This document shows positions 2,681 through 31,657 of a stretch of 64,000 nucleotides of DNA, in pieces. The stretch covers positions 62,001 through 126,000 of the forward strand of contig JAJYYH010000033.1 in NCBI GenBank assembly GCA_021801255.1, written 5' to 3'. Made by a program: the position numbers and the translations under genes. The stretch is from Pseudomonadota bacterium (GTDB taxonomy: Bacteria > Pseudomonadota > Alphaproteobacteria > Acetobacterales > Acetobacteraceae). The notes under the pieces are model-generated. The model had not been told where the DNA came from and searched no databases. It saw nothing but the letters and a program-made list of their open reading frames with translations. The first letter of the stretch is position 1; every line of letters starts with the position of its first letter.

Positions 2681-2693
2681 GGGTGCCTCCTTC

Positions 2694-2834: not shown

Positions 2835-2866
2835 GTTCTACTCTCCGCAAAAAATTGCAGGCGGGC

Positions 2867-4350: not shown

Positions 4351-4354
4351 CGCA

Positions 4355-4756: not shown

Positions 4757-4758
4757 GG

Positions 4759-5067: not shown

Positions 5068-5072
5068 GGCGC

Positions 5073-6395: not shown

Positions 6396-6485
6396 GGGAG
6401 ATCCTCTGTGTCAGAAGCGGCGAAGGCGCGCCGGGTTGGCGGGCGGCGGCGCGCCGAGCCAATAGCGCGCCGGGTTGGGGTTGGT

Positions 6486-6890: not shown

Positions 6891-8296
6891 GGCGTTCCTT
6901 GTTGGGCTTCGAGTGTGGCAAGCTCGCCGGTCACATCCTCGATGTCGTAGGTGGCGGCGAGGCTTTTTGCCGCGCTCGCGCGGCTCATGAGATTGGCGTT
7001 GGTCAGCGCGACGAGGGCTTCAGCGTCCTTGAGCCGATCATCGGCGGAGGGCGGATACCAGCGCGGCCATTTCAGGCTGATGGCGGCCTGGGGATCGAGC
7101 GCGGGCAGGGCCGCGCCATTGACCCGGAGCTTGTAGTGTTGGCTGGCACGCAGCACCATGCGGGCAAGCTCGGCGAGCGCGCCTTCACCGTACGAAATGC
7201 GCAGATTATCGGCGAGCCACACCAGGCCCTGGTTCATCATCTCGAGCGCGCGGCCCGAGGTCGGCGCGCTGAAACGCTGCGCATCGGCGCGGTTGCCGTG
7301 GATGCTCTCCAAGGCCAGCTCGCGCAGCGTCCGCACATAATCGATCACCGCCGCCGAGGCGGTGCCGCCGATTTCCAAGAGCCGGGCATCGCCTTTTTCG
7401 GAAACCACCAGCGCGTTGGCCGCGCCCTTGATGATCTGGTTATCGGAAGTCGCCGGCTCCTTGATCAGCAGCGTCGGGTCGGAGCTGTATTTCAGCCCGC
7501 GCCCGGCCTGCGACAACTGATAGTCGATCTCGATCTGGGTTTCGATGGCGGCGCGAAAGGTCGAGGCGCCATCACGCATGTCGCCGCTCGCCGAGGGGCC
7601 GGGCAGGTTCTTCACCCACACGACCGGGACGAAGCCGAGGCCGTGGCGGACGCTGCGCGCGGCATCGACCAGCGGCATCTCCGGCGCGCCCACCGGCCAG
7701 GGCTCGTACCACCACTCCCATTCCGTGTCCCAGCGCCGCATGAACCAGTATTGCCCGTTGGGATCGGGGATCTCGAAGCCCTGATCGCGCAAGGTGGCGC
7801 CCGCGACCTTGAATTTCTCGGTGACCTGCTCCAGCGTGTCGGGGGCATCGGCCTGCCAGCGTGGCGTCAGATAGAGCGTCGCGAGACTGGAAAAAAACAC
7901 CCGCCCGCGCAGCACCCGCAGGAGGAGCGCGACCGAGCCCACCGCACCCCGCATCGCGGCATCGATCATCACCTCGTTGAGCCGCGCTTCCTTGGCGATC
8001 GCGGCGAGCGCGTCGCGCACCGTTGCGTCGGGCGAGTCGAATTGCGGGAAATGGCCTTCCGAGAACACCAGCGCGACCGAATCCTCAACCACGACGCGGC
8101 AGAGATTGTAGCGCACGCTCGGGCGGCGCTGGCGGAGCGGGATATATTCCCCGCCCAGGCTGCGCTCGTCGTGAAACTCGTAGGGCAGCACGTCATAGAT
8201 CGTGCCATCGAGGACGCGCCCGAGAATGTCCATTTGCCGCGTGCGCGCGGGGTAATCGGCATCGCGCGGGATCAGGCTGCAGAGGGTTTCGAACAT
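6887..8296 (-). CDS. Phage portal protein
   Basis: The start was set at the ATG at 8296 (MFETLCSLIPRDADYPARTR), immediately after the terminase stop. Forty further upstream residues would overlap the terminase and look like shadow sequence. The product is 469 residues. The N-terminal domain has NLCRVVVEDSVALVFSEGHF, a middle region has IETQIEIDYQLSQAGRGLKY, and the helical C-terminus includes SAPTSGRALEMMNQGLVWLA, which corresponds to the helix-rich stem and crown of portal rings (SPP1 gp6-like). It would form the dodecameric channel through which DNA is packaged. Confidence 0.82.
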   Translation of the reverse strand: MFETLCSLIPRDADYPARTRQMDILGRVLDGTIYDVLPYEFHDERSLGGEYIPLRQRRPSVRYNLCRVVVEDSVALVFSEGHFPQFDSPDATVRDALAAIAKEARLNEVMIDAAMRGAVGSVALLLRVLRGRVFFSSLATLYLTPRWQADAPDTLEQVTEKFKVAGATLRDQGFEIPDPNGQYWFMRRWDTEWEWWYEPWPVGAPEMPLVDAARSVRHGLGFVPVVWVKNLPGPSASGDMRDGASTFRAAIETQIEIDYQLSQAGRGLKYSSDPTLLIKEPATSDNQIIKGAANALVVSEKGDARLLEIGGTASAAVIDYVRTLRELALESIHGNRADAQRFSAPTSGRALEMMNQGLVWLADNLRISYGEGALAELARMVLRASQHYKLRVNGAALPALDPQAAISLKWPRWYPPSADDRLKDAEALVALTNANLMSRASAAKSLAATYDIEDVTGELATLEAQQGTP

Positions 8297-8297
8297 T

Positions 8298-9743
8298 TCA
8301 GCGCGCCAGCAAGGAAAGTGAGAGCTGCCGCGTCGGCGCGGGGGCAAACGCCAGATGCGCGAAGGCGCGGGAGAGAGCGTCCACCTGATCGTCCTTGTGG
8401 CCTGCTGGGAAATCACGCAATTCGTCGAGGAAGGGATGGGTGAAGGCGGCGCGCAGCACCGCGAGATTGCCCGCCGCCGCTTGCGCCGCGACGGGGCTGG
8501 CGCGGGTTAATTTCGCGCCCGATTCCGGGCTCGCGATGACGTGGTAGCCGGCGAGCTTGCGCGTCAGATAGAGCACCTGCGCGCGCCCGGCCTGGCCGGG
8601 GTCTTGCGGCAGCAGGATCGGCGTCGTCGTGCCGTCCTCGCGCGCCGTGGCCAGGATCGCCTGCTCGACCTCGTGCGGGCCGCCTCGCAGGCGCTTGATA
8701 TCGTCAACGATGAAGCGCCCGGCTTCATCGCGCCCCATGCGGAGCCCGACCGTCCAATCCGGATCGCGCCCCGGGGCCGGCAGGCTCGCCGCCAGATCCC
8801 AGGCGCGCACCCGCGCGCTGAGCGCGGGCAGGGCGTCGAGAACCGTGATGGTTTCAGTGCGGAACAACAATCCCTCCGAAGGGCGGGGTGTCTGCTGATA
8901 GAGCGCGGAGAACGCGCGCTCGCCGATGATCATGCGTTTGCGCGCCAGATCGGCGGCCGATTCCCACTCCGGCCACAACGCCTGCCCGGGTTCGCGCCCG
9001 AGCGGATCATCCGCCTCGGCAAGAGCGGGAAAGCGCAGTGTGCGCCAGCGATCGCCGCCCGCGGCCTGGGCCGCGAGCAGGCGCCCGCCGAGATCGTCTT
9101 CATGCCAGCGGGTCATCACCAGGATGATTTTGCCGCCCGGCTTGAGGCGCGAGATCAGATCGCTTTGATACCATTGCCAGACCTGCGCGCGCGCCGTGGC
9201 CGAGGCCGCCTCGGCCTGCGATTTCACCGGATCGTCGATCAGCACGAGATCGGCGCGCCGCCCGGTGATCGGCCCGCGCACGCCGGCGGCGTAGTAGCTG
9301 CCGCCCTGATCGAGACTCCAGCTGGCGCTGGCGCGGGCGTCGCGGGCCAGCGCCAGGCCGAGGCGGGTGCCGTGTTCGGCGATCAGGTTGCGCGCGCGGC
9401 GGCCGAAATGGCTGGCCAGCGGCGCGGTATGGCAGGCCGCGATGATCTGGCTTGTCGGCGCCTGGGCCAGCCACCAGGGGGGAAAGATGACGCTGGCGTA
9501 GGTGGATTTCGCCGAACCCGGCGGCATGAGCAGCATCAGCCGGTCGTTTTCGCCCCGCGCCAGGGCTTCGAGTTCAGCGATCAGCGCCCGGTGATGCGCC
9601 GCCGGGCGCTGGCCCGCCTGAGCCAGCGCGAGATGCGCCCAGGCCGTCAAGGAGGTCCGGATTTGTTTCCTGAGCGTCGCCTCCAGGCGCAAATCGGTCG
9701 CCTCCGGGCGCAAGTCTATGGATCTCGCGCAGGAGTTCGGCAT
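8298..9743 (-). CDS. Phage terminase large subunit
   Basis: This is the packaging motor ATPase and nuclease. About 481 residues are read from the ATG at 9743, but the start is uncertain. Walker A is LMPPGSAKSTYAS, the DEAD-like Walker B is LVLIDDPVKS, and a coupling-like motif VMTRWHEDD follows. The nuclease half begins at VRAWDLAAS and ends near HKDDQVDALSRAFAHL, with acidic residues placed as in RNase-H-like terminase nucleases. The N-terminus overlaps the upstream small gene by more than 100 bp and contains a 21-bp tandem repeat, so the true start or a frameshift needs checking. The gene abuts the portal start. Confidence 0.85.
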   Translation of the reverse strand: MPNSCARSIDLRPEATDLRLEATLRKQIRTSLTAWAHLALAQAGQRPAAHHRALIAELEALARGENDRLMLLMPPGSAKSTYASVIFPPWWLAQAPTSQIIAACHTAPLASHFGRRARNLIAEHGTRLGLALARDARASASWSLDQGGSYYAAGVRGPITGRRADLVLIDDPVKSQAEAASATARAQVWQWYQSDLISRLKPGGKIILVMTRWHEDDLGGRLLAAQAAGGDRWRTLRFPALAEADDPLGREPGQALWPEWESAADLARKRMIIGERAFSALYQQTPRPSEGLLFRTETITVLDALPALSARVRAWDLAASLPAPGRDPDWTVGLRMGRDEAGRFIVDDIKRLRGGPHEVEQAILATAREDGTTTPILLPQDPGQAGRAQVLYLTRKLAGYHVIASPESGAKLTRASPVAAQAAAGNLAVLRAAFTHPFLDELRDFPAGHKDDQVDALSRAFAHLAFAPAPTRQLSLSLLAR

Positions 9744-13344: not shown

Positions 13345-13986
13345 ATGCGATCAGGCCTTTTGGCGGGCGCCGCGCTGGCGGCCGTGCTCACCGCTTTCAC
13401 CACCGTCCCGGCCTGGGCGATCGTCGCCGTCACGCCAACCGACACGATCACCGTGGACGGCAATTATAGCGCCGGCGCTTTTGGCGTCGGCACCGCGCCC
13501 TTCATCGCCGGCCCCTTCACCCTCAGCTTCAGCGTGCCGGAATCCGGGTTCGCCCCCACCGGCTCGCTCTTGTTCGAGAATGTTATCGGGACGGGCAGCT
13601 ACGCCAATGGCGGCACGACCACCACGTTCGGCAACGGGCAATTGAATTCCTTCTTTGATAGCAACAACGGATTTCAGGTCGGCGGGTATATCGGCCCGGT
13701 CACGAACAGCTCGGTTTCGGTAACCTTCACCGTGACGACGACGACCCCGATTTTTACCACCATGGCCGAGTCGGGCGGCACGGAATACAGCCTCGTTCCC
13801 GGCTCCTACGCCCTGGCCAGCAGCGGCAACACCGCCTTTTTCAACAACGATCCCGCCTTCACCGGCGGCGGCGTCATCATCGCCGGCCCGGCGAGCAATT
13901 CGGTCCCCGAGCCCGCGACGTTGGCGCTGCTGCTCGCCCCCCTCGGCGCGCTGGCCTTCCTGCGCCGGCGCGCGTCGGGCGCATGA
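13345..13986 (+). CDS. PEP-CTERM sorted exported protein
   Basis: This 213-residue protein has an N-terminal signal peptide (MRSGLLAGAALAAVLTAFTT, then VPAWA). The middle is Thr/Ser/Gly-rich and probably beta-sandwich. The C-terminus has the sorting signal VPEPATLALL followed by a hydrophobic stretch and a basic RRRAS tail. Such proteins are exported, cleaved at the C-terminal signal by an exosortase and released to the surface or matrix. The exosortase is not in this window. Its stop overlaps the start of a second PEP-CTERM gene (ATGA), so the two are translated together. The adhesive or matrix role is inferred from the family. Confidence 0.85.
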   Translation: MRSGLLAGAALAAVLTAFTTVPAWAIVAVTPTDTITVDGNYSAGAFGVGTAPFIAGPFTLSFSVPESGFAPTGSLLFENVIGTGSYANGGTTTTFGNGQLNSFFDSNNGFQVGGYIGPVTNSSVSVTFTVTTTTPIFTTMAESGGTEYSLVPGSYALASSGNTAFFNNDPAFTGGGVIIAGPASNSVPEPATLALLLAPLGALAFLRRRASGA

Positions 13987-14651
13987 GGGGCGCGATCCGG
14001 CGCCTCGCCGCGCTGTCGCTGGCCGCGGCGCTGACGCTCGGCGCCGCGCCGGCCTGGGCGCTGGTCGCCATTTTCCCCGCGACCCCGATCGGCACGGCGA
14101 CCGACACGCTCACCCTCAACGGCACCTACACCTCGCTGCCGACCCCGCGCGCGCAGCCCTTCGCGGCGTCGGATTTTACCCTGAGCCTGACCCTGCCGGC
14201 CGAAATCATGGCCCCGCCGCTCGCGCCCTATCCGGGTTTTTCCCTGAGCGTCAGCGGATCCTACACCAATGCCGGCCAGACCGAGACCTTCACCACCCCG
14301 CTCGCGACCTTTCGCACCGGCTGCCTCGGCTGCACCGGCGCGCAATCCTCGGACTTCGAGGTGGGGGTTTCGGGGCTGCTCACGCCTGGGGATTTCTTCA
14401 ATATCGCTGCCCTGACCGCAGCGCCGCTCTTTAGCGGGGGGAGCACCACGACCGCGGCGCCGGCGTATTTTTCCGACATCACCCTCAGCCAGTCCTTCGC
14501 GGTGGACGGGCTGGTGACTTACGGGCTCGATCCCGCCTTCACCGGCACGCTCAGCCTCACGCCGAACGCCTCGGTCCCCGAGCCGGCAACCCTCGCCCTG
14601 CTCGCAGCACCGCTCGCCGGCCTCGCGTTCCTGCGCCGCCGCCGCGCCTGA
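13983..14651 (+). CDS. PEP-CTERM sorted exported protein, second copy
   Basis: This 222-residue protein follows the first PEP-CTERM gene with a four-base overlap. It has a signal peptide (residues 1-27, ending in APAWA). The middle is low in Lys and rich in Thr, Pro and Ser, and CLGCTGAQSSDFEV near residue 115 holds two cysteines. It ends with SVPEPATLALLAAPLAGLAF and an RRRRA tail. Length and layout match the upstream protein, so the pair probably arose by duplication. A strong terminator follows. Confidence 0.85.
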   Translation: MRGAIRRLAALSLAAALTLGAAPAWALVAIFPATPIGTATDTLTLNGTYTSLPTPRAQPFAASDFTLSLTLPAEIMAPPLAPYPGFSLSVSGSYTNAGQTETFTTPLATFRTGCLGCTGAQSSDFEVGVSGLLTPGDFFNIAALTAAPLFSGGSTTTAAPAYFSDITLSQSFAVDGLVTYGLDPAFTGTLSLTPNASVPEPATLALLAAPLAGLAFLRRRRA

Positions 14652-16175: not shown

Positions 16176-17027
16176 TCAGCCGCGCGCCCGCCGGCGCGCG
16201 AGCGCGAGCCCGGCAAGCCCGGCGCCGAGCAACGCGAGCGAGGCCGGCTCCGGCACGCTCGCCGGCACGCTCGCCGGCGGGTCATCGACATTCAGCGCCG
16301 AGAGCGCCACCGCGCCGGCTTCGCTGGACGTGTTGCTTTGGCCATCGCCGGTGCCGACGACGTCGATGGTCATGCCGGTGAGGCTGGTTCCGGCCCAGCT
16401 CGACGGCAGGACAAAGCTCTGCTCATCGAGGCGCTGGCTCAGATTCTGGCCGTTATTGCCGTTGTTCCACCAATTCTCCGCCGTCACGTCGCCAAGCGCG
16501 GACGTGGTGTTGGTTCCTGGCAGCGTGTCGGAAAAGACGTTTTGATTATAGTCGCGAACCGTCTGACCGCTTTGCAGGCCATAGGTCGCGGTGTTGCCGG
16601 CGGAATTGGCGAAGGTGATCAACACCGCGGCGTTGTTGTCGGCGGTGTTGCCGATGAGGCCGTAGAACTCATTGAACAATGACTGCACGGTGGCGCCGGC
16701 GGTCAAGGCGATCGGGGCGAAATTATTGATCGTCAGCGTATTGCTTCCGGCTCCCATGCTGGTTGCCGGAACGGCGACATAGTGCCCGCTCCAATCGGCG
16801 AAGGTGATGCCGGTGGCCTGGTTGCCGCTGGTTGTTGCGGTGATGATGGAGCTGCCGCCAACCTCCTGGCTCCACAGGCCGGTGAAAAATGTCCCGTTCG
16901 TGCCCCCGCCGTAATAGGCGGAGAGATTGATCGCGGTGATGGTATCAGCCCAGGCCGGCGCCGATGCCGCCGCCAGCCCGCCAAGTATCGTCGTGGCGAG
17001 GGCCGTGAACGTGAAAAACCGTCTCAT
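16176..17027 (-). CDS. PEP-CTERM sorted exported protein, third copy
   Basis: The ATG at 17027 (MRRFFTFTALATTILGGLAA) is preceded by an AGGAAG ribosome-binding site, giving 283 residues. A signal peptide ends near PAWA. The mature part is rich in Asn, Thr, Ser and Gly (SGQTVRDYNQNVFSDTLPGT). The C-terminus has SVPEPASLALLGAGLAGLAL and an RRRARG tail. It is convergent with the pentapeptide-repeat gene and unrelated in length and sequence to the tandem pair at 13345, although it uses the same sorting signal. Confidence 0.85.
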   Translation of the reverse strand: MRRFFTFTALATTILGGLAAASAPAWADTITAINLSAYYGGGTNGTFFTGLWSQEVGGSSIITATTSGNQATGITFADWSGHYVAVPATSMGAGSNTLTINNFAPIALTAGATVQSLFNEFYGLIGNTADNNAAVLITFANSAGNTATYGLQSGQTVRDYNQNVFSDTLPGTNTTSALGDVTAENWWNNGNNGQNLSQRLDEQSFVLPSSWAGTSLTGMTIDVVGTGDGQSNTSSEAGAVALSALNVDDPPASVPASVPEPASLALLGAGLAGLALARRRARG

Positions 17028-17231
17028 CGTCGTGCTTCCTTCATGCGGTGTTACGTCAAACGCCCCCCTCAGCGCCACCGCCGGCTGGTTTCGGCCAGTG
17101 CCGCCGCGCTGTGAACGTTACGGAACGTTAGCACACAAAAAATTGTAAATTTATGATAATTTGACGATTATCACGAAAACGTGATCGTGCCGCTCACGCC
17201 CCGGCCCCGTCCAGCTATAAATACCCCGCAA

Positions 17232-20262: not shown

Positions 20263-20532
20263 TCACGCAGCACCGATCTGGGCGAGCGCGGCAATCGCGC
20301 CATCGAGATCGGCCTCCATCCGCGCGATCAGCCCGTCCATCTGGCGGAGCGCCGCCTCCGGGCTCGCCTCCGGCGCGGCGGCGATGCCGAGCGCGCGCTC
20401 GCGCAGATAGGCGCTGACCGAGAGCCCGGCGGCCGCGGCTTGCCGGGCGATTTGCGCGGCCTCGCCGTCGTTGACCAGAACCGTCAGGCGCGTGCTCCGA
20501 CCGGGGACCGTCGGCGTCAGGGCAAGGCTCAT
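20263..20532 (-). CDS. Ribbon-helix-helix mobilisation-like protein
   Basis: This 89-residue protein begins MSLALTPTVPGRSTRLTVLV. The segment RLTVLVNDGEAAQIARQAAA followed by GLSVSAYLRERALG is the beta strand plus two helices of MobC/NikA-type DNA-binding accessory proteins, which help relaxases at transfer origins. The C-terminal 40 residues are helical. I see no relaxase beside it, so this may be a remnant or an orphan regulator. It suggests the region was acquired by a mobilisable element. Confidence 0.6.
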   Translation of the reverse strand: MSLALTPTVPGRSTRLTVLVNDGEAAQIARQAAAAGLSVSAYLRERALGIAAAPEASPEAALRQMDGLIARMEADLDGAIAALAQIGAA

Positions 20533-20618: not shown

Positions 20619-20759
20619 TCAGGCGGCCTCGGGCAGCTCGGCGCTCCAGGCGTCGATCAGCGGCTCGGTCGGCCCCCGGCGCAGGCGCACCCAACCTCCA
20701 CCACCCCCGGCTGACACCGCCCGCGAGCAGGAGATGAGGAGCCGGGCCGGGCGGATCAT
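20619..20759 (-). CDS. Small ORF coupled to the P-loop NTPase gene
   Basis: This 46-residue frame begins MIRPARLLISCSRAVSAGGG. Its ATG overlaps the TGA of the large NTPase gene in an ATGA, as between the other genes of this operon. It ends LIDAWSAELPEAA. Nothing else supports it, and its translation is unproven. The remaining 20533-20618 carries a simple CA-rich repeat (TACACATACAC type) and no other gene. Confidence 0.35.
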   Translation of the reverse strand: MIRPARLLISCSRAVSAGGGGGWVRLRRGPTEPLIDAWSAELPEAA

Positions 20760-22234
20760 GCGCGGGGCCTCATACCACCCTTTCGCCTCACGTTCGCCTG
20801 GAGGCGGAAGAGATCGGGCATGTTGATCCGGCCATCGGCGAGACGAAAGAAAATCTTGAGGCGGACGAGTTGCTCGACGAGAAGCTCGTAAGCGTCGTCC
20901 TCGGGCGCCGCCAAAACATCACCGGGTGGAATATAGCGGCTATCGTTATTTCGCTTTTCCGCTTCTGACTTGAGTTTTTGCAAAGTCCCCCGCTCTTGCC
21001 AGCGCGCGGCGAGATCGCTTTCCGTCAGAGGCACGACGAGAGAGGCCATGTCGCCAAGAGCCGTAGTCATCCAGTGATAATCCTCGGTCAATTCCTCCAC
21101 CCGAATTTTGGATGCGTGTCGTGCCCCTGATTCGATACCGGATTTATCGAGAACGGTCTCCCTGGATTTTGTCTCCTTGGCGGCTCTTTTCATCGCCAAA
21201 AGAAAGCTGCGCGGGGCGGCGAAGCCGGCGGCGTCGGATAGGTGATTGGGCACCCATTTATACGTGTCGCCCCTCTTCGGCCCAGCACCCATGAAATCCC
21301 CGGCCAGAGCGTGGAAGACTTTTTGTTGCGAAATTTCATCCTCGGCCAGATCATTGGATGGACGCCAGACGTTATCGACCAAGTTGAATTTTGCGCCGAA
21401 TGCCGAAGCGCAAAAATCTCGGAATGATCGCGCGGAGTCGTCCCTGTTAGCATTGGCCAGCAAGGTCCACAGCAATCCATAGAGATCGCGGCGCTTCCAG
21501 GTGAGTTCAACTTCGCTGTGACGGAGCTTGGAGGCGTCGCCAACCGTCCATAACCCGCTATCCTCCGCCATATCTGGGCGGATGAATATTTTGAGGCGGA
21601 CCGCTTTCAATGCGCGCACCGCCAGCGCCAGACGAATGATGCCCGCCATCTGCCTGCGGATGCCCTCCCAATCCATGGCAAGCCGATCGAGTGCGTCCAG
21701 CGCAAGGACATAAATGGCGTTGTTTCTGATCAGCGCTTCATCGAGCGTCCGAAACGCAGCGTTGCATCTTTCCGGGCTAGCGGCCGTCCATTGGGTCCAG
21801 TCCAGCCAAGAAGCATCATATCCGGGGGTGTTCTTGTCCGGGATCGGAGCACGCCTTAAGGTGACTGCGCGCCACAAATCTTCTGCCGAATGTCCGGCGG
21901 TCATGATTTTCGCAATCACTGGCCGTGTCGGGTGCTCGCTATTGAATTCATCATCCGAAAATCCGAGGCGTCCCTCAACACGATCTAGTTTCAGCCGTGG
22001 GTATGATTGCGCAACGAGTTGTCTGATGTTCTTATTGACTAGAACGCTCGACCAAAAGCTTTTGCCCGTGCCCCGGTCACCGACGACGATCGCGCGATTG
22101 GGATCGAGCGCGCCGGCATGATCGGCCGGCGTGAACACGGCTTTTTCCTCGGGCGCCCGCGCCGCGATGTGCGAGGCCTCGTCGGGCAAGGATTCGAAAG
22201 ATTCCCGAACGATGATGGGGAATCGTTGCGTCAT
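20756..22234 (-). CDS. P-loop NTPase, third gene of the HEPN operon
   Basis: This 492-residue protein has Walker A VVGDRGTGKSFW (residues 51-62), and a probable Walker B is VLALDALDRLA around residue 177. It looks like a STAND/AAA-type ATPase that ends in an all-alpha region. A charged helical segment (KRAAKETKSRETVLDKSGIE) lies in the C-terminal half, and PDLFRLQANVRRKGGMRPRA closes the protein. There is no nuclease or membrane motif. Its ATG overlaps the stop of the KGGVGR ATPase gene (22231-22234). In the operon the likely role is sensing or energy coupling, which is inference. Base composition is less GC-rich than the surroundings. Confidence 0.75.
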   Translation of the reverse strand: MTQRFPIIVRESFESLPDEASHIAARAPEEKAVFTPADHAGALDPNRAIVVGDRGTGKSFWSSVLVNKNIRQLVAQSYPRLKLDRVEGRLGFSDDEFNSEHPTRPVIAKIMTAGHSAEDLWRAVTLRRAPIPDKNTPGYDASWLDWTQWTAASPERCNAAFRTLDEALIRNNAIYVLALDALDRLAMDWEGIRRQMAGIIRLALAVRALKAVRLKIFIRPDMAEDSGLWTVGDASKLRHSEVELTWKRRDLYGLLWTLLANANRDDSARSFRDFCASAFGAKFNLVDNVWRPSNDLAEDEISQQKVFHALAGDFMGAGPKRGDTYKWVPNHLSDAAGFAAPRSFLLAMKRAAKETKSRETVLDKSGIESGARHASKIRVEELTEDYHWMTTALGDMASLVVPLTESDLAARWQERGTLQKLKSEAEKRNNDSRYIPPGDVLAAPEDDAYELLVEQLVRLKIFFRLADGRINMPDLFRLQANVRRKGGMRPRA

Positions 22235-23538
22235 GTCAGCCTCAAAATCTGTTCAACGCCGGCCAAGAAGGGGCCGAACGCCGGAAGATAGCGCTCGGCG
22301 GTGAGCAAAGACTTGTCCGCCCGCGGGTCAAAACGCGCATAGCTCTCGTCCGCGCGGATTTCGAGCGGGTAATGCGGCGCATCGTCGTCGTCAACGTCGA
22401 ACGTGAAAGCCAGAGCCTCAGACGCGGGCGAATCCGCTGTCGTGGATTGCGTCTCGTCGTCGTATAAAGATTCTCTCCAGAGATCCCAGCTTTTCTCACG
22501 GAATTCCGAAAGCGCATTTTCCTGCGGCGGCGCTTTGGCGTGTACCATTTTGAACGCACCGCGAATATCCGCGCCACCCACCTCAGGATCGAAGGCGCTG
22601 CGCAGGCCGTCGAACAAAATGGTGAAATCATCAAAGCTTTGCTCGCTCGCCGTCGCGAACAAAAGCACTTTGCCGCCGAGGCCGAGAAGCAAGCTGCCGG
22701 AAGTCTCATGCAGGCCAGCCCGGCCGTCGATCAGAACGATGTCATACGCGCGCCGCTCGCAAAGTTTTCTGATCAATAGATCGGCTTTTTGCGCGAAGTT
22801 GAAACCGGCAAACGTCGCGCTGACCGAGCCGGGGATATAAGCCCGCGCGAGTTTGGAGAGATAGGCGCCTGGCGCGCGCCCGCGCGCCGGCACGACGTCG
22901 ACCACCGCTCTGTTTGAGGTGAACGAGCTTGGGCTGATCATGTCCACTAGCATCTCGTCGCTTTCAGCACCGGCGGCGAGCGCGGCAAACCAGTCCACAA
23001 CGCCAAAATCTGGCATCTCGTCGCGGCCGAGCAGCGTCGAGCCAAGTCCCGGCGCCTCCAGATCGAGATCGACGATGAGAAGGTTATAGCCGCGCGCGGC
23101 GAGATGCGCCGCCGTAATGGCAAGCGCCGTCGAGCGTCCGACGCCGCCTTTCACCGAGTGAAAAACCAGGCGTTGCGGCTGTTCGGCCAGCGGCGCCGGC
23201 CGCACCAGCCACTCGCCCCCAGCCACGCGGCGATCGATCAGCCGCACCGGGGAATCGGCGGCGATCGCGAGCGAGGGCTCCCGCAAGAATTCTTGCAGCT
23301 TGGTCTCGGCAACGCCGGTGACCAGCCCTTCGCCCGGCGCGGCATAGGCGCCAAGCCGGGCGCGGACGCTCTCGAGATCCGCTACCAGACGCTTGGCGTT
23401 ATCCTCTATCGTCACCAGGCGCAACTGGCCGTAAATGTCGCGGATGAGCCGGCCCTTGCCCGCCCCCTCGCGGCCAAGTTTACCCTCGATCCAGCGCGCA
23501 AATTCCTCGGGGGCGTTATCGAAGGTTACGTTGGGCAC
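22231..23538 (-). CDS. ParA/MinD-like ATPase with a KGGVGRS deviant Walker A
   Basis: This 435-residue protein has a P-loop of the SIMIBI type at residues 130-136 (KGGVGRS), where the usual invariant lysine of GKT/GKS is an arginine and the signature lysine K130 is kept. A VDLDLEAPG motif at residues 156-164 and IVLIDGRAG near 268 complete the nucleotide site. The N-terminal 120 residues form a helical region of unknown role (EFARWIEGKLGREGAGKGRL). Arginine in the P-loop may reduce hydrolysis. It starts 3 bp after the HEPN stop and overlaps the next gene, so all three are co-translated. Confidence 0.8.
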   Translation of the reverse strand: MPNVTFDNAPEEFARWIEGKLGREGAGKGRLIRDIYGQLRLVTIEDNAKRLVADLESVRARLGAYAAPGEGLVTGVAETKLQEFLREPSLAIAADSPVRLIDRRVAGGEWLVRPAPLAEQPQRLVFHSVKGGVGRSTALAITAAHLAARGYNLLIVDLDLEAPGLGSTLLGRDEMPDFGVVDWFAALAAGAESDEMLVDMISPSSFTSNRAVVDVVPARGRAPGAYLSKLARAYIPGSVSATFAGFNFAQKADLLIRKLCERRAYDIVLIDGRAGLHETSGSLLLGLGGKVLLFATASEQSFDDFTILFDGLRSAFDPEVGGADIRGAFKMVHAKAPPQENALSEFREKSWDLWRESLYDDETQSTTADSPASEALAFTFDVDDDDAPHYPLEIRADESYARFDPRADKSLLTAERYLPAFGPFLAGVEQILRLT

Positions 23539-23541
23539 GGT

Positions 23542-23928
23542 CTAGGGTCTCCCCATCTGCTTAAACACGCTATCGACATCCTTATGCCAGTTTTGCCATC
23601 GCGTCTCGGCGTCGGCTTTTTTCATATTCGGCTCGTAGCGTAAATCTGCCGTCCAGCCGTCAAGGAACTTGGGCGCCAACACTTGCGATACCTTGGACAT
23701 GACATGACCATAACCGCTGTTGCTTATTGCCGCTTGCAAAGCCGGAAAATGGCAGCGAAGGCCCGATTTCCAATCAATGGTTATGCCGGCGCGCGTGAGT
23801 TCTGCCTTGACGAGGCACTCCGCCGCGAATCCAATCAGATGCCCCGCGTTCTGATACCGGCCATGCTCGGCAAGTTTTTTCGCGTCTCTCCTGTGACGTT
23901 CCGCCGCCTGTCCGAAATCATCTGCCAT
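23542..23928 (-). CDS. HEPN-domain protein with intact R-x4-H motif
   Basis: This 128-residue protein starts at the ATG at 23928 (MADDFGQAAERHRRDAKKLA). The four-helix HEPN layout is visible: AGHLIGFAAECLVKAELTRA near residues 28-48, and the C-terminal helix has R110-W-Q-N-W-H115, an R-x4-H motif used by HEPN ribonucleases as the catalytic site. Acidic and basic partners around it are unremarkable. HEPN proteins often act as RNA-cleaving effectors in toxin-antitoxin and defence systems. First gene of the operon at 20756-23928, with a 107 bp gap upstream to the replication genes. Confidence 0.75.
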   Translation of the reverse strand: MADDFGQAAERHRRDAKKLAEHGRYQNAGHLIGFAAECLVKAELTRAGITIDWKSGLRCHFPALQAAISNSGYGHVMSKVSQVLAPKFLDGWTADLRYEPNMKKADAETRWQNWHKDVDSVFKQMGRP

Positions 23929-24035: not shown

Positions 24036-24617
24036 TCACCGCCCCGCCAGCGCCACCACCAGCAACCCCACCGCCTCCCTGTGCCAGCGCTGCACCGCCT
24101 TGTGGTCGGCGCCCAAGGCGGCTCCCAGGCGGCGCCACGGATAAAGATGGCGGCCGGTGAGGGGGTGGGTGAGGGCGCGGGCGGCGGCGATGCGGCGGAG
24201 CACGTAGCGCGCGTCGGGGATCAGGGCGAGCCAGGAAAACGCCTCGTCCATGCGCGAGATGCGCGCCGCACTCGGCACCGGCGGGCGGAGGCGGGCGCTC
24301 TCGTCCCAGCCATAGGCCTCGGCGGCCGTGCGGACGATCTCGAGCGTGCCCATGCGCAGCCCGGTCGAGTAGCCGCGCATGGGCAAGGCGAGCAGCGTCG
24401 CCCCGGCTTCCTCCAACCGCGCGATCACCTCCTCCGCGCCATATTGTGCGCCATGGGGCGCGCCATGGGGCGCGCCATTCTCGACCGCGGGCAAGTGCCG
24501 CAGGGCGGGGTGCGGCGCGCCATTCCTCCCCGTCTTCGACGGGGAGAATGGCGCGGCCCACCCAGCGCCCGCCGCCCGCGCCAAACCCGCGCCATACCCT
24601 CTCTCTTGATCCGGCAT
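24036..24617 (-). CDS. DUF6362-like phage protein
   Basis: The ATG at 24617 gives 193 residues (MPDQERGYGAGLARAAGAGW). The longer upstream frame is shadow sequence. The last 130 residues contain EEVIARLEEAGATLLALPMR, VRTAAEAYGWDESARLRPPV, ISRMDEAFSWLALIPDARYV and AALGADHKAVQRWHREAVGL. This pattern of R-M-D-E with a late W-R-L-G helix resembles the DUF6362 family of phage and element proteins with a helix-turn-helix-like end. Low-complexity repeats of GAPH type occupy residues 50-60. It follows the RepA-type ATPase gene directly. Confidence 0.6.
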   Translation of the reverse strand: MPDQERGYGAGLARAAGAGWAAPFSPSKTGRNGAPHPALRHLPAVENGAPHGAPHGAQYGAEEVIARLEEAGATLLALPMRGYSTGLRMGTLEIVRTAAEAYGWDESARLRPPVPSAARISRMDEAFSWLALIPDARYVLRRIAAARALTHPLTGRHLYPWRRLGAALGADHKAVQRWHREAVGLLVVALAGR

Positions 24618-24619
24618 CG

Positions 24620-25849
24620 TCACTCTCCTGTCGTGGCATTGGCGCCCCGCGCGCCGGGGCGTTTGGCGTCCATCACGCGCACGCCCTGGCGCTGCTTGCG
24701 CTGGGCGGGGTCGCGGTATTCGGTCTCGTAGAGCAGCCCGTGTTCGAGCCAGGTGCCGATGACCTGCGCGGCTTGCGCCTCGGTCAGGGCAAAGCGCTCG
24801 ATCAAGACGCGCCCGGCCCAGCGCGCCGCGCCCAGGCCACGGCGATGCGCGGCGTAGAGCAGGCCGGCTTCCGGCCCGGCGGCGATCAGGTCGAGCGCCT
24901 GGTTGCAGTCCTCCGGGGAAAGCCTGGCCCACACCGTGGCGGGGCGAAACCGCGCGATGGCCGCCACCCAGTCGCCCTTGGGATAGGCGGGCGTGGCGTT
25001 GCCGAGGGAAACACTCTCCAGCCGGTACCAGGCCGCGCGGGCGGCGCGCGGGGCGAGGTTGGTTTTCACGTCGTCGAGCCGGACATGGCGCCAGCGCTCG
25101 GCCTCGGGGATGCCGATCTCGCCGGCCTCCTCGGCGCTCATCGGCGAGAGGATCTGGGCGATGCGCGCGGCATCCGTCAGCGCCTTGGCGCCGCGCGCCG
25201 CCTCGACATCCGCCCCCGCGCCCTTCCGCACATGGTGGATCAGCAGCACCGCCGCCCCCGTCGCCTCCGCCACTTCCGCCCAGGCGGTCGCGGCGGCGTC
25301 CATGTGCGGGTTGGAGTTTTCCTCCAAATGGTGCGATTTGACGAAGGGATCGACGATGATGCAGCCGATCGCCCCCGCCCGCGCCGCCTCGATCACGCCC
25401 TCCTGGTCGGGAAAAATGACGCTGCGATCAGGGGTTTCCTCGGCCATCACGAGCCGGCGCGTGCGCCCGGAATGGAGGAAGAGGCGGCCGAAAACCTCCT
25501 CGCGCGCGATGCCGTGGTGCAGCATGCAGGCTGCGACGCGGCGGTTCAGCTCGTCCATCGGGTCTTCGAGGTTGAGCAGCCAGACCGGCGTTGCGTGATG
25601 CACGCGCTCGCCGAGCAGCGGCCGGCCGGTGGCCAGCGCCAGGGCTTCCGCGATGGCGAGCGCCGATTTGCCAACGCCGCCCGGCGCCACCAGCACCGAG
25701 ACGAAGCCCGCGACGAGGGCCGTGCCATAGAGCCAGGGCCGGGGCGCGATCGTCGCGGGGGCGGGGAGGGCGGCGGGGACGGCGAGCAGCGGCTCGGCGG
25801 GCCAGAACTCCCACCCCGGGGCGAGACCGTTTCCCCCCGCTTGCCTCAC
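24620..25849 (-). CDS. RepA-type replicative helicase/ATPase
   Basis: This 409-residue protein begins MRQAGGNGLAPGWEFWPAEP. Walker A is LVAPGGVGKSALA (near residue 54), Walker B is CIIVDPFVKSHH, and LLIHHVRKG follows, all as in the RecA-fold AAA_25/RepA primase-helicase proteins of plasmids and phages. The C-terminal 90 residues include a winged-helix-like ALTEAQAAQVIGTWLEHGLL. It unwinds or loads the replication fork of the element. The ATG overlaps the stop of the upstream HTH gene (25846-25849), and the next gene follows 2 bp downstream. Confidence 0.8.
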   Translation of the reverse strand: MRQAGGNGLAPGWEFWPAEPLLAVPAALPAPATIAPRPWLYGTALVAGFVSVLVAPGGVGKSALAIAEALALATGRPLLGERVHHATPVWLLNLEDPMDELNRRVAACMLHHGIAREEVFGRLFLHSGRTRRLVMAEETPDRSVIFPDQEGVIEAARAGAIGCIIVDPFVKSHHLEENSNPHMDAAATAWAEVAEATGAAVLLIHHVRKGAGADVEAARGAKALTDAARIAQILSPMSAEEAGEIGIPEAERWRHVRLDDVKTNLAPRAARAAWYRLESVSLGNATPAYPKGDWVAAIARFRPATVWARLSPEDCNQALDLIAAGPEAGLLYAAHRRGLGAARWAGRVLIERFALTEAQAAQVIGTWLEHGLLYETEYRDPAQRKQRQGVRVMDAKRPGARGANATTGE

Positions 25850-26711: not shown

Positions 26712-27527
26712 ATGGCCATCGAAGACGCGCGCTACCTGAAAACGGTGCTCGACCCGATCCGGGTGTGCGCGCGTTACCGTCCGAAATTCGGGCAAGGAGC
26801 CAAGGGCAGTGGCCTCACGCTCGCCGAGTTTCAGACCCTCTATCGGAACGATCCGTTTTATAGCTGGTTCGGTCTCGATAATCCGCTGATCTACGCAGCC
26901 CATAAGGCGGCGGGTGGCCTGACCAGTGTTTATCGCCAGATTGGCATGGGCTGCGAGAGACTGTTCCGCACTATTCTGCAAGACGCGCTCGGTCTCGCCG
27001 CGTCCGATGTAACTTGGTCCTACGAGGCGCCGACGCAGAGCGGGAAGGTTCGCACGCTCCATCTTGACGGCAGGGTGCCGCTCGACAGGATTGGCGACGC
27101 CAGGAAGCGCGACCGTTTCCATGCCTGGATGAAGCGGTCCGCGGAAAAGATTGGCGTTGATCAGGGGATATTTGAGAAACTAGGCGGCGCTGTCTTCGAA
27201 GTTCGCCAAGGCTACAAGAGCAAGGACTCGAAGCGTCAGAACGCCGATATCGCCAACGCGGCGTCCGCCTACAGCAAGGCTTATCTTCCTTGCGCGGTTA
27301 TTCTATCGGCACAGATCGACAGCGACATTCTGCTGCGCTACCGCGCGGCGAAATGGGCCATCGTGATCGGGATCGAGGGAGCCAACGACCCCGTGACATC
27401 GACCTACGATTTCATGCGTGACGTGGTGGGCTATGATCTCGCTGCATTTTTCATGCGCAATAGCGCGACGTTTCAGGCGGAAATCGCCGCCGCCCTCAAG
27501 ACCCTCCTAACCCCGGAAGCAACATGA
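26712..27527 (+). CDS. Probable restriction endonuclease or partner protein of the methylase
   Basis: This 271-residue protein begins MAIEDARYLKTVLDPIRVCA. The segment VFEVRQGYKSKDSKRQNADI near residues 155-175 carries the charged residues expected of a PD-(D/E)xK-like nuclease site, though the motif is not a textbook match. The rest shows no other motif. It ends by overlapping the methyltransferase start (27524-27527), the arrangement of many type II restriction-modification pairs. No known family was recognised, so the nuclease call depends mainly on the partner. Confidence 0.55.
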   Translation: MAIEDARYLKTVLDPIRVCARYRPKFGQGAKGSGLTLAEFQTLYRNDPFYSWFGLDNPLIYAAHKAAGGLTSVYRQIGMGCERLFRTILQDALGLAASDVTWSYEAPTQSGKVRTLHLDGRVPLDRIGDARKRDRFHAWMKRSAEKIGVDQGIFEKLGGAVFEVRQGYKSKDSKRQNADIANAASAYSKAYLPCAVILSAQIDSDILLRYRAAKWAIVIGIEGANDPVTSTYDFMRDVVGYDLAAFFMRNSATFQAEIAAALKTLLTPEAT

Positions 27528-28768
27528 GCGCCACGTTGAGAGAACGGCTTCGCCAGCGCGCGGATTACACACATAAGCACAATCTCGGAACGGGGCGGCA
27601 CGGATGGCTCAGATTGACCCCCGCCTATTCGGTAAAGATCGTCGAGGAGCTTATCAGCCAATATCCGAAGGGGCTGCGGATTCTTGATCCATTTTGCGGC
27701 ACCGCGACGACCGCTCTGAGCGCCGCCTATCACGGGCATCAGGGCGTGACGACGGACATCAATCCGTTTCTTGTCTGGCTAGGCCAGGCCAAGGTATCCC
27801 ATTATCCTCCTGGCACGATCGCGGCAACGCGCGACGCATGCACGCATGCGCTCGCCCTCGTGCGGAAGCGAAAAATCGCGCCAGCGTCAACCCCGCCGAT
27901 CCATAAAATCGAAAGATGGTGGAGCAAGGAGGCGCTCGATTTTCTGCGCGCCCTGAAAGCGGCGATCGCGGCCGCGACGGAAGCCGGCTCCGGCGAGCGA
28001 ACGCTTCTGGACGTCGCTTTCTGCCGGACGCTGATCGCTGTTTCGAATGCCGCCTTCAATCACCAATCGTTATCATTCAAGGATAATGGACAGACAGCCT
28101 TCGCGCTGGACCACGACATGACAGGAATGTTCGCCAAGGATGTGCGTTTCGTTCTGGATGGCGCCGCCGACAACCCGGATGGTTCCGGCCGGGTGCTGCT
28201 CGGGGACGCGCGCAATCCAACCGCCGGGCTTGACGGCCAGTTCGATCTGGTCATTACCTCCCCGCCCTATGCCAACCGGATGTCGTATATACGTGAATTG
28301 CGACCCTATATGTACTGGCTGAATTATCTTGCGAACGGCCGTGACGCGGGGGATCTCGACTGGTTGGCGATCGGTGGAACCTGGGGCATTGCCACGAGCC
28401 GTCTCGTCGAATGGGAACGGGGAGCGGACATGCTCGTCAACGCCACCCTCGACTCCGCGCTTGATCGCATCGCGCATCATGACAACAAGAATGGGCGTAT
28501 CCTGGCCAACTATGTCGCAAAATATTTTGACGATATGTGGATACATTTTCAGGGGCTGCCGCGTGTTCTGGCTTCGGGCGCCGAACTGCACTACATTGTC
28601 GGGAACTCGACATTCTATGGCGTTCTTCTGCCGGTCGAGCAAATCTACGCCGAGATGCTGGCGGCACTTGGCTTCAGCCGGATCGAGTGTCGCCCAATCC
28701 GTAAGCGCAACTCAAAAAAAGAGCTGATCGAGTTCGACGTTACCGCGCGCTGGCTGGCGCGGGGATAG
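27524..28768 (+). CDS. DNA methyltransferase (gamma class, N4-cytosine or N6-adenine)
   Basis: This 414-residue protein has motif I LRILDPFCGTATT near residue 52, then motif X-like and helical segments. The catalytic motif IV is TSPPYANR near residue 243. The presence of SPPY indicates methylation of an exocyclic amino group (N4-cytosine or N6-adenine). Motif I precedes motif IV, as in the gamma class. It starts 4 bp inside the upstream gene and ends before the AlbA_2 gene. The recognition sequence cannot be read from the DNA. Composition is clearly less GC-rich than the host background, which supports recent acquisition. Confidence 0.85.
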   Translation: MSATLRERLRQRADYTHKHNLGTGRHGWLRLTPAYSVKIVEELISQYPKGLRILDPFCGTATTALSAAYHGHQGVTTDINPFLVWLGQAKVSHYPPGTIAATRDACTHALALVRKRKIAPASTPPIHKIERWWSKEALDFLRALKAAIAAATEAGSGERTLLDVAFCRTLIAVSNAAFNHQSLSFKDNGQTAFALDHDMTGMFAKDVRFVLDGAADNPDGSGRVLLGDARNPTAGLDGQFDLVITSPPYANRMSYIRELRPYMYWLNYLANGRDAGDLDWLAIGGTWGIATSRLVEWERGADMLVNATLDSALDRIAHHDNKNGRILANYVAKYFDDMWIHFQGLPRVLASGAELHYIVGNSTFYGVLLPVEQIYAEMLAALGFSRIECRPIRKRNSKKELIEFDVTARWLARG

Positions 28769-28785: not shown

Positions 28786-29937
28786 ATGGCTCTGCGTTAT
28801 ATTCTGTTTGACGACATCACGGAACAACATCTTCGCGGCTTGATCGAGAACAAGGCGGCGGAGAGTCTTGACATCGACTACAAGCGCCAGACCTATGGCG
28901 GGAAAGATTCGGACAGGAAGGAATTTCTTGCCGATGTCTCCTCCTTCGCCAATGCCGGAGGCGGCGATATCGTCATCGGCATGGCGGAAAAAGAGGGTGT
29001 TCCGATCGCCATAGCCCCTTTCACGGAAGACGCGGATAAAGAGCGCCGCCGGCTCGAACAGATGGCACGCGACGGGATCGAGCCGCGCATCATCGGGCTT
29101 GCCGTTCGCATCGTTCCGGTTTCCGGCGGTGTTGTTCTCGTCGTGCGGATTCCAAAAAGCTACAACCCGCCGCATCGGGTCGCGTTTCAAGGCGCCAAAC
29201 GGTTTTATGCGCGCAGCTCGGGCGGGAGATACGAACCCAATGTCGAGGAACTGCGCAATCTGTTCCTCGCGACGCCGCATCTTCATGAGCGCATCCGCGC
29301 CTTCCGCATGGAACGCATCGCCCGCATCCTGGCCCGCGAAACCCCGGTGCCACTTTTCACATATCGCAACCGGTTTTTCGTGCTGCATGTTGTTCCCTAC
29401 AGCGCATTTGGCATGGGGCAGGCGTTGGTGCTTGAGCAGGCGATGCATAGTTTGCAGTTTCTTGCCCCTCTTGGCAGCGAATTCCCAAGCGGTCAGCGTT
29501 TTAATTTCGATGGATTTATTGCGCTAACAAATCCTGATAAAGATGCGCCTGCTCAACGGGCATATTGCCAGGTGTTTCGCTCCGGCGCGGTCGAGAACGT
29601 GGCCGCGCTCGACGCACGCTCAGTCATATCGACGCAGAAGCTGAGCGTTTGGGTCAAAGACTATGCGTCCAAACATGCTAGGGCGCTTGGGAAGTGCGGT
29701 GCCGCTCCGCCCTACGCGGTGCTGGTGAGCCTGCTCGGGATGAGAGGTGTGCGCTTCGGCCTCTACAGAAGTGTAATGCAGGAATACACCCTCCCTGCGG
29801 ATCGCGACCATTACCATTTCGCTGAAGGCGTGTTCGAGACGCTGCCGCGCGATGACCCCGAGGCGAGAGCCGCGCTTCGCCCGACGCTTCACCACATGGC
29901 AAGCCTGATGGGCCACGCTCATAGCACGATCGCTTGA
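28786..29937 (+). CDS. AlbA_2 (Schlafen-like) domain protein
   Basis: This 383-residue protein has an N-terminal AlbA_2 domain, visible as SLDIDYKRQTYGGKDSDRKE followed by EFLADVSSFANAGGGDIVIG and MAEKEGVPIAI. The remaining 250 residues are mixed alpha/beta without an obvious motif (SVWVKDYASKHARALGKCGA). AlbA_2 proteins are nucleic-acid binding and some belong to defence loci. It starts 17 bp after the methylase stop, so may be part of the same transcript. Function is inferred only from the domain and the surroundings. Confidence 0.8.
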   Translation: MALRYILFDDITEQHLRGLIENKAAESLDIDYKRQTYGGKDSDRKEFLADVSSFANAGGGDIVIGMAEKEGVPIAIAPFTEDADKERRRLEQMARDGIEPRIIGLAVRIVPVSGGVVLVVRIPKSYNPPHRVAFQGAKRFYARSSGGRYEPNVEELRNLFLATPHLHERIRAFRMERIARILARETPVPLFTYRNRFFVLHVVPYSAFGMGQALVLEQAMHSLQFLAPLGSEFPSGQRFNFDGFIALTNPDKDAPAQRAYCQVFRSGAVENVAALDARSVISTQKLSVWVKDYASKHARALGKCGAAPPYAVLVSLLGMRGVRFGLYRSVMQEYTLPADRDHYHFAEGVFETLPRDDPEARAALRPTLHHMASLMGHAHSTIA

Positions 29938-29964: not shown

Positions 29965-30040
29965 GGGAAAAAAGTTCTTTGGTTCTTTCAAGAAAGAACT
30001 TCTTTTTTACAAAAAAGAAGCAAAAAACTTTTACCCCGTT
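29965..30040 (+). repeat. AT-rich direct repeat, copy 1
   Basis: About 76 bp begin with GGGAAAAAAGTTCTTTGG and end near CAAAAAACTTTTACCCC. Small inverted repeats inside (TTCTTTTTT paired with AAAAAAGAA) suggest hairpins. It is nearly identical to 31658-31738 except for a four-base insertion there, and stands out from the GC-rich background. Confidence 0.85.
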
Positions 30041-30888
30041 TAGGTCGGTGGCCAGGGTTGTGGTTGGTCGTAGAATGCGTTCCTGATGTACTCGGCGACG
30101 GCGATATAGGGCGGGGGGGAGCGGGGGGGCGGCGGTCGCGCGGCGCTTGGCGGCAGGTAGTCGCCATGGTCGTAGTTGTCCGCCTCTGGGATCCGCCAGG
30201 GCCCCTCGACCAGCGCGGCTTCCGGGCGCGACGGCCCGGCATAGCCGAGCGCGGGCTGAAACGGCGGGTGGTCGTCGTGCAACAAATCGGCGAAGGGATC
30301 GCCCAGGGGAAACGCGAGCTTCAACACCCTATCGGCCCGCGAGGCGAGCATCGAGAGGTCCATCGGGTTGCGCGCGGCGGCTCGGTATTCCTCGATCAGG
30401 CAGTTCTGGTTGATCGCGCCGGCGAGCAGCGTCACCGAGCGCGCCGGTCGCCCCAGCCCGAGCAGCGCCTGGAGCACGACGCGTGCGCCGAGGCTATGGG
30501 AGGCGAACGACAAACTGCGCGCCTCTGCGAGATGATCGCGGCAGAATTTGGCGATGGCGTTGCCCGAGGTGATCGCGACGTCGCCCTCGAACGGATAATC
30601 GATCACCGGGATCCAGCTATCGCCCGGCCACAACACGCCGATCGCGACATCGTTCGCCGCGAGGTCGAGGAGCGGGTGCAAACGCTCAAACATGCGCGCC
30701 CCGGCCGCGAAATCGACGTTGAAGCCATGCACGATGAACAGCAGATTGCGCCCGCCGAGCAGGCGCGGAACCTCGCCCCAAGGCAAACCCGCGAGCGCGC
30801 CGGTCTCGCCGTTGCCGGCAAGCATATAGGGCTCGCTCAGAACAAAGCCGCCGACCCTGGAGCGGCGGAGGTTGAGATAGAGCGTCAC
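30040..30888 (-). CDS. Alpha/beta hydrolase (DUF900-like)
   Basis: This 282-residue protein begins MTLYLNLRRSRVGGFVLSEP. The nucleophile elbow is SHSLGAR near residue 153, and an oxyanion strand reads LLFIVHGFNVDF. The catalytic acid is plausible near EADNYDHGDYL, and the last residues are Pro-rich. The DUF900-type fold is an alpha/beta hydrolase of unknown substrate. It overlaps the membrane-protein gene by 4 bp (30885-30888), and both lie between two AT-rich repeats. Its stop lies right next to repeat copy 1. Confidence 0.7.
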   Translation of the reverse strand: MTLYLNLRRSRVGGFVLSEPYMLAGNGETGALAGLPWGEVPRLLGGRNLLFIVHGFNVDFAAGARMFERLHPLLDLAANDVAIGVLWPGDSWIPVIDYPFEGDVAITSGNAIAKFCRDHLAEARSLSFASHSLGARVVLQALLGLGRPARSVTLLAGAINQNCLIEEYRAAARNPMDLSMLASRADRVLKLAFPLGDPFADLLHDDHPPFQPALGYAGPSRPEAALVEGPWRIPEADNYDHGDYLPPSAARPPPPRSPPPYIAVAEYIRNAFYDQPQPWPPT

Positions 30889-31562
30889 CGCAACAGCGCG
30901 CGCAACTTGCCGCTCGCCGCGACCGCGGTGCTGAGCGCGGTGGTGAGATCCTTGGTGACGGGGGCAAGCGGCGTTGCGACCAGGCCGACCAGCACGGCGA
31001 GCAGCACATGTTTCATATCGAACGGGCTGCTCACGGCATAGCCGCCGATGAGGGCGAGCACAACGGCGATCGCCGCGGCCAGCACCTTCGCCGCGTTGCG
31101 GTAGTGCTGGTCGGCTTTTTCATAGGCGGCATCTATCACCGCGCTGAGGATCGCATCGAGATGGCCGTAGATATTGACCTCCGCGGGCGTAAGATCGGTG
31201 CCTGCCGCGATCTTTTCCGCGAGGGGGTTCAGGGCCGCGCGATCCAGCCCGGTGGCCGCCGCCAGCGCCGCCACGGTTTCTGGCCGCAACCCGAGTTTGA
31301 TCAGCGCCTTGACCTTCGCCTTCTGATCCCCGATCGCCACGCCATTGATCCAGAGCCCATCAATCGTGTCGAACGCCGCGCGCTCGGGGATGGTTTCGAG
31401 GAGGGTGTTAAACGGCTTGATCTGCTCGCGGATGGTTTTGAGCCCGACATGGGAGATGCCGAGGGCAAACAATTTGGTGGTGTCCACCAGCCCGGAAGCG
31501 GCGGCGCCGAGGGCGCCAATGGCGCCGAGGATCGCGGCCAATTGGGTGGGATCCGGCAACAT
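30885..31562 (-). CDS. Membrane protein paired with the hydrolase
   Basis: The ATG at 31562 gives 225 residues (MLPDPTQLAAILGAIGALGA). A helical, partly hydrophobic N-terminus and a soluble middle (AGTDLTPAEVNIYGHLDAIL) are followed by two hydrophobic segments near the C-terminus: VLAAAIAVVLALIGGYAV and HVLLAVLVGLVATPLAPV. The C-terminal tail reads KDLTTALSTAVAASGKLRAL. I recognise no family. A membrane protein next to a hydrolase may form a two-part effector, but there is no direct evidence. Confidence 0.65.
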   Translation of the reverse strand: MLPDPTQLAAILGAIGALGAAASGLVDTTKLFALGISHVGLKTIREQIKPFNTLLETIPERAAFDTIDGLWINGVAIGDQKAKVKALIKLGLRPETVAALAAATGLDRAALNPLAEKIAAGTDLTPAEVNIYGHLDAILSAVIDAAYEKADQHYRNAAKVLAAAIAVVLALIGGYAVSSPFDMKHVLLAVLVGLVATPLAPVTKDLTTALSTAVAASGKLRALLR

Positions 31563-31657
31563 GCTTTCCTCCCCTCCGGAAAGCCGAATATTGCCCCATT
31601 GACTACACCATCGCAACATAATTATCGCCGACAGACCACAGGATAAAGCGAAAGACA

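Follow-up and report, generated by a model that had tools for sequence, protein, structure and literature searches.

PDC-M28, a catalogued phage defence candidate: a conserved unit of a HEPN protein and two ATPases with a putative non-canonical HEPN site

Our results show that three adjacent genes of an Acetobacteraceae contig (JAJYYH010000033.1, positions 62,001 to 126,000; this whole stretch of 64,000 nucleotides is called the window below) form one conserved unit. The genes, here named A, B and C, encode a small HEPN protein, a ParA/MinD-type ATPase with a KGGVGR P-loop and a larger, predicted AAA+ ATPase, respectively. They correspond to PDC-M28, a catalogued defence candidate and a real, conserved unit. 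The best reading of this operon is a HEPN effector under the control of two nucleoside triphosphatases (NTPases). We see about an even chance that the PDC-M28 unit is a horizontally spread defence against invaders, in which an NTPase-gated HEPN would work via an alternative site. In agreement with a preliminary description made from the letters of the window, the three genes lie on the minus strand at 20756-23928, with a spacing of 3 base pairs between A and B and an overlap of 4 base pairs between B and C. Their G+C content (A 0.55, B 0.63, C 0.57) is lower than that of the window (0.66). The host genome contains one copy each of A and C.

The preliminary description presented the trio as a candidate undescribed defence system. 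The word 'undescribed' does not stand, because a search with the PADLOC models, which that description had suggested, matched all three proteins to PDC-M28. The profile matches in PADLOC-DB 2.0 were, in gene order, to PDC-M28A (E 5.7e-22), PDC-M28B (5.4e-100) and PDC-M28C (2.2e-131), and the genes are adjacent, on one strand and in the order that defines PDC-M28. Moreover, PDC-M28A was matched by all 74 homologues of A that we collected. Compared with the catalogue entry (models PDLC04558, PDLC04559 and PDLC04561), the trio gave nearly full-length matches in identical order, and no difference was found. In PADLOC usage, PDC denotes a 'phage defence candidate' (PMC11514479). Because the trio is already catalogued as PDC-M28, it is uncharacterised rather than undescribed. 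We found no paper on its mechanism or testing. A literature search that covered few subscription papers found PDC-M28, KGGVGR and Sll1717 named nowhere, and an experimental description may exist under another name. In the accessible parts of papers on BREX (2026), phosphorothioate (2024), NTP-dependent conflict systems (2020) and DefensePredictor (2026), the trio is not described.

Evidence that A, B and C belong together comes from their distribution. As C served as the bait, it is informative to find A and B next to it. At the class level, the model of C matched in 8 of 240 genomes, and 4 of these matches were full-length and high-scoring. In a profile scan with C, isolates and metagenome-assembled genomes yielded 80 loci and IMG/VR another 13, which gives 93 loci from more than 10 phyla; C was also present in 20 plasmid records. 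We examined ~100 loci (those of the profile scan, eight from plasmids and some from whole genomes) and detected A and B next to C in nearly all of them. The phyla with the trio include Pseudomonadota, Actinomycetota, Cyanobacteriota, Chlorobiota, Chloroflexota, Spirochaetota, Myxococcota and others. In each of 77 clean loci the gap between A and B was at most 15 nucleotides (45 of them had a 4-nucleotide overlap) and the gap between B and C at most 105 nucleotides. Two points that the preliminary description had put up for checking, a three-gene order kept across phyla and the co-occurrence of the genes, are borne out. Likewise, C is present in each of the 13 plasmid records that have B. The distance matrices of A, B and C were correlated with r values of 0.80, 0.81 and 0.89, to which host relatedness contributes, against maxima of 0.05 to 0.10 after shuffling. 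Within the window's genus, one of five other genomes contained a relative of C with 36% identity, and the stretch that carries it also has A and B. The distribution is patchy and the sequences are divergent, as is seen with genes that move horizontally. A blastn search of complete E. coli genomes with the Enterobacter copy did not find the trio.

Exceptions to the complete trio were mostly contig ends or damaged copies. For instance, in locus L035 (OY282378.1 275745-291190) the HEPN gene A is split by an insertion sequence at 3225-5713, with a transposase open reading frame at 3585-5390, and B and C are intact. Gene A is also split in L054 and L078, deletions were found in L046 and L061, and A is absent in L059. 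In L081 and L090, C is present and A and B are undetectable. At 5373-7909 of L081 (PEAO01000003.1), C is preceded by an unrelated protein of 275 amino acids that, by eye, resembles DUF4393/Abi-alpha proteins. Extra copies were observed as well. Pseudomonas lopnurensis (L024) has an additional A-B pair on the opposite strand (2250-4063, minus) beside a full trio (5308-8470, plus), and two copies each occur in Thioalkalivibrio halophilus (L025, L050) and in one alphaproteobacterial metagenome-assembled genome (L020, L049).

Gene A matches the Pfam HEPN family with E 1.3e-4. The preliminary description attributed to it an intact R-x4-H catalytic motif. The letters R110 and H115 are indeed present, but 'intact catalytic motif' is not tenable. 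Among the 74 homologues of A, arginine occupies position 110 in 16 and histidine position 115 in 3, and no homologue but the protein of the window itself has both (1/74). In the predicted structure of A (predicted local distance difference test, pLDDT, 95), with helices at 5-21, 25-46, 63-70, 75-83, 94-98 and 104-124, both residues are situated within the last of these (104-124, helix 4). We rejected R110-x4-H115 as catalytic motif because of this lack of conservation and this position. An Rx4-6H motif counted from the invariant R97 was also rejected, being present in only 7 of 74. Hence, A does not display the hallmark of a canonical HEPN ribonuclease (RNase), a conserved Rx4-6H at the end of helix 3.

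Conservation in A lies elsewhere. Residues G33, E37, K41, H60, W92, R97 and Y98 are invariant in the 74 homologues, and R11 and H12 nearly so. The model places R97 at the end of the penultimate helix and H60 in an insert after helix 2, and the structures nearest to it are the HEPN proteins 1o3u, 1ufb and 2hsb (Z about 11); a sequence search of solved structures with the A profile gave no credible relative. A survey of HEPN domains located the canonical arginine at the end of helix 3 and found that helix 2 has an E-x3-[KR] element (Anantharaman et al., 2013; PMC3710099). The same survey pointed out that AbiV and AF0298-type (2hsb) HEPNs are without the motif histidine and have a conserved histidine in the insert between helices 2 and 3, a possible alternative active site, while HEPNs without conserved polar residues are likely inactive (PMC3710099). 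With E37, K41, H60 and R97 in 74 of 74 homologues, A shows the alternative-histidine arrangement of HEPN-T and AbiV proteins, the placement of these residues being taken from the model. In a comparison with PF05168 HEPNs, made by direct alignment with two proteins, E37, K41, H60 and R97-Y98 aligned with an ordinary member of that family (L148). Thus, A fits the 2013 description of alternative-histidine HEPNs feature by feature, and its RNase activity is putative.

In line with the preliminary description, B is a ParA/MinD-like ATPase with a KGGVGRS P-loop. It carries KGGVGRST and belongs to NF047398 (AAA_KGGVGR) of NCBIfam, with E 3.2e-47 and 161 bits against a cut-off of 90; its N-terminal ~118 amino acids match no named family. 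In 80 of 80 homologues of B, the Walker-A lysine is an arginine (R135), but 79 of 80 retain K130, the signature lysine. D157, D159, R273 and G275 are invariant. An arginine at the position of the Walker-A lysine often permits nucleotide binding and impairs hydrolysis. By analogy, the arginine P-loop of B may have kept nucleotide binding and have impaired hydrolysis. When the class was searched with NF047398, the weak matches were ParA/MinD relatives, and the matches above the cut-off were only the trio genes and one other protein (L144, G035:C75, 1-2079, minus strand), in which a KGGVGR-type ATPase domain is fused to long TPR-like repeats. This fusion protein belongs to no trio, and the KGGVGR family thus extends beyond PDC-M28.

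Gene C had been described as a large P-loop NTPase, which can now be named more precisely: on the basis of its predicted structure, C is likely an AAA+ ATPase of ORC/Cdc6-STAND architecture. Its P-loop is GDRGTGKS, with GxRGxGK[ST] as the family pattern. The residues G52, R54, G55, G57, K58 and D180 are found in 77 of 77 homologues, and position 183 is D or E. Conservation of the P-loops, on which the preliminary description had staked its proposal, is therefore seen in B and C alike. Over most of its length, the model of C (pLDDT 95.2) aligns with the archaeal STAND-like ATPases 2fna and 2qen (VIA Z 14.4 and 14.2, respectively) and with Cdc6/ORC proteins, plant NLRs and CED-4 (VIA Z about 12-13; 13.0 for CED-4), while the top Foldseek rows are ORC2, Cdc6/Orc1 and BrxC (9zdx). 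Both the predicted fold and the Walker A and B motifs are those of ORC/Cdc6-STAND ATPases. Many further AAA+ proteins come next, with Z about 10. Within the prediction, the AAA+ core can therefore be taken as secure and the assignment to the ORC/STAND type as likely. With 64.6 bits against a cut-off of 75, C falls outside NF047389 (ATPase_Sll1717), of which it is a distant relative. A sequence search of solved structures with the C profile gave no credible relative.

The folds of B and C raise two alternative explanations. Firstly, a ParA-like B and an initiator-like C might serve the replication or partition of a mobile element and have no part in defence. Both proteins have folds suited to this, ParA and ORC/Cdc6 types, and in the window mobilisation and replication genes adjoin the trio. 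However, most homologues have unrelated genes around them and lack a ParB, origin or replication partner that is constant, the P-loop lysine of B is always arginine, and the constant partner is a HEPN protein. We regard this explanation as very improbable. Secondly, A might be a non-catalytic HEPN whose ligand is RNA, a nucleotide or a partner, and the two ATPases would give the defence output, e.g. by acting as ORC/ParA-type proteins on DNA to block replication of the invader. The missing canonical Rx4-6H points in this direction, as do the ParA-like nature of B and the resemblance of C to the DNA-binding ORC/Cdc6 and BrxC folds. Yet, the invariant charged or polar residues E37, K41, H60, R97 and Y98 are a possible alternative active site according to the 2013 survey (PMC3710099), and this second explanation, too, seems unlikely, if less so than the first.

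From the conserved operon, the co-variation of its genes, the invariant residues and the predicted folds, all of which were computed, we infer a role in defence, with A as an effector that targets RNA and with B and C as its gate, as well as the direction of control and the trigger. In this HEPN effector reading, C and B would together act, perhaps on DNA, as a sensor or gate under nucleotide control. An invader would perturb this gate, which would then license A. The small HEPN-T protein A would bind or cut RNA (transfer RNA or messenger RNA) with a site made up of H60 and R97 together with E37 and K41, perhaps also R11 and H12, and the attack on RNA would stop the growth of the infected cell. 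A stronger version, in which PDC-M28 is a widespread three-part immune system whose ORC/STAND-type and arginine-P-loop ParA-type ATPases gate a HEPN RNA-cutter with a non-canonical H60/R97/E37/K41 site, is possible, and we hold it only tentatively. We know of no characterised defence system with such a gating arrangement and active site.

The genomic context was counted in favour of a defence role. On a plasmid of Streptomyces sp. NBC_01334 (L016; NZ_CP130719.1 15135-30541) the trio lies between pglW and pglX of BREX-2, in the window it has restriction-modification genes nearby, and IMG/VR contigs with the trio contain terminase, integrase and replication genes among other genes. Some copies adjoin integrases. 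Among 131 immediate neighbours, phage integrase was the Pfam family seen most often (5/131), and PADLOC families (type I and IIG restriction, PbeA, PD-T4-6, mad6) appeared once or twice each. A constant fourth gene was sought among these 131 neighbours and none was found. Because the PADLOC families appear singly or twice and the top Pfam family reaches only 5, the trio has no fixed fourth partner.

Several observations weigh against a defence system with A as its RNase. Neighbouring genes are mostly ordinary, with PADLOC families in the minority, and as a background rate is lacking no enrichment in defence islands is claimed. A tblastn search with C found no match in 50,697 GenBank phage records. 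Furthermore, the site is putative, as H60, R97, E37 and K41 were grouped by conservation and perhaps form a single site. Without a canonical Rx4-6H, A could be a non-catalytic RNA-binding protein.

PDC-M28 occurs in many phyla with a strict gene order, yet no published mechanism was found, and the residues and folds for testing have now been named: the wrong catalytic pair is replaced by an invariant set, and C is identified as a predicted ORC/STAND-type ATPase. If the trio is active, it offers a test of a question dating from 2013, namely whether the alternative-histidine HEPNs (HEPN-T, AbiV) act as RNases, and of the role of an arginine-P-loop ParA-type ATPase in immunity.

The surroundings of the trio in the window (Table 1) are as the preliminary description had them, with a mobilisation protein, a replication-type ATPase and a restriction-modification pair. 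The Schlafen protein directly behind this pair is a possible extra defence component. Further along the window, at 30040-31619, a DUF900 alpha/beta hydrolase gene has a 4-nucleotide overlap with a gene for a protein of 244 amino acids, which is without a Pfam match and, by eye, has hydrophobic segments toward its C-terminus. Two small, secreted-looking proteins at 13983-14651 and 16176-17078 have, again by eye, PEP-CTERM-type tails (VPEPATLALLAAPLAGLAFLRRRRA and similar).

Table 1. The trio and its neighbours, given as positions in the 64,000-nucleotide window.
Feature	Position	Strand	Description
Gene A	23542-23928	minus	128 amino acids; HEPN-T/AbiV-like HEPN; PDC-M28A
Gene B	22231-23538	minus	435 amino acids; GTG start; SIMIBI ParA/MinD-type ATPase, KGGVGR variant; PDC-M28B
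Gene C	20756-22234	minus	492 amino acids; predicted ORC/Cdc6-STAND AAA+ ATPase; PDC-M28C
NikA-like mobilisation protein	20263-20532		
DUF6362 and AAA_25 proteins	24036-25849		
XRE-type regulator			
Type II restriction enzyme	26712-27527		PADLOC E 1e-83
Methyltransferase of the type II restriction enzyme	27524-28768		
Schlafen AlbA_2 protein	28786-29937		

Two known HEPN systems resemble the trio in layout. In the HEPN (MAE_18760)-ParA/Soj pairs, the HEPN gene adjoins a ParA-type SIMIBI ATPase, as in the trio, but the HEPN is of another family with an intact Rx4-6H, the genes form a pair and not a trio, and no ORC/STAND ATPase was reported (Anantharaman et al., 2013). In the Pfam search, A had no MAE_18760 match at E up to 1, and it is without the motif of that family. 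HepT-MntA (HEPN-MNT) is similar in that a small HEPN is controlled by an adjoining nucleotide-using protein. There, the partner is a nucleotidyltransferase that AMPylates the HEPN, and this HEPN has a canonical Rx4H, which is absent from A.

These systems suggest a further alternative, namely a toxin-antitoxin-like module in which the HEPN protein A would be the toxin and B, by itself or together with C, the antitoxin, and which stabilises plasmids or islands without phage sensing. HEPN-MNT modules operate likewise, the trio travels on plasmids and mobile elements, and the 2013 survey proposed the same role for the MAE_18760 pairs (PMC3710099). However, A is not a HEPN of the MAE_18760 type. 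In addition, two metagenome-assembled genomes (L032, L056) have an intact A with a frame-broken B, which would be intolerable for a strict pair, although sequencing error is possible, and the third component, an ATPase, is always retained. We consider a toxin-antitoxin role about as improbable as a non-catalytic A.

Among other known proteins, C is like the ORC/Cdc6-STAND ATPases (SSO1545, 2fna; PABY2304, 2qen; CED-4; BrxC) in predicted fold over most of its length. It differs from them in having no sequence relative among solved structures and no added repeat-type sensor domain beyond the aligned part. Gene A is closest to the HEPN-T (PF05168) and AbiV proteins (1o3u, 2hsb, 1ufb; AbiV 9bj7), with which it shares the predicted fold, at the Z scores given above for the HEPN-T structures, as well as E-x3-K in helix 2, a histidine in the helix 2-3 insert and R-Y at the end of helix 3. 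In sequence it is very distant from them, as at E 0.01 PF05168 is reached by only 2 and AbiV by 4 of the 74 members, and it is set apart by the extra conserved R11-H12 and W92 and by its operon with B and C.

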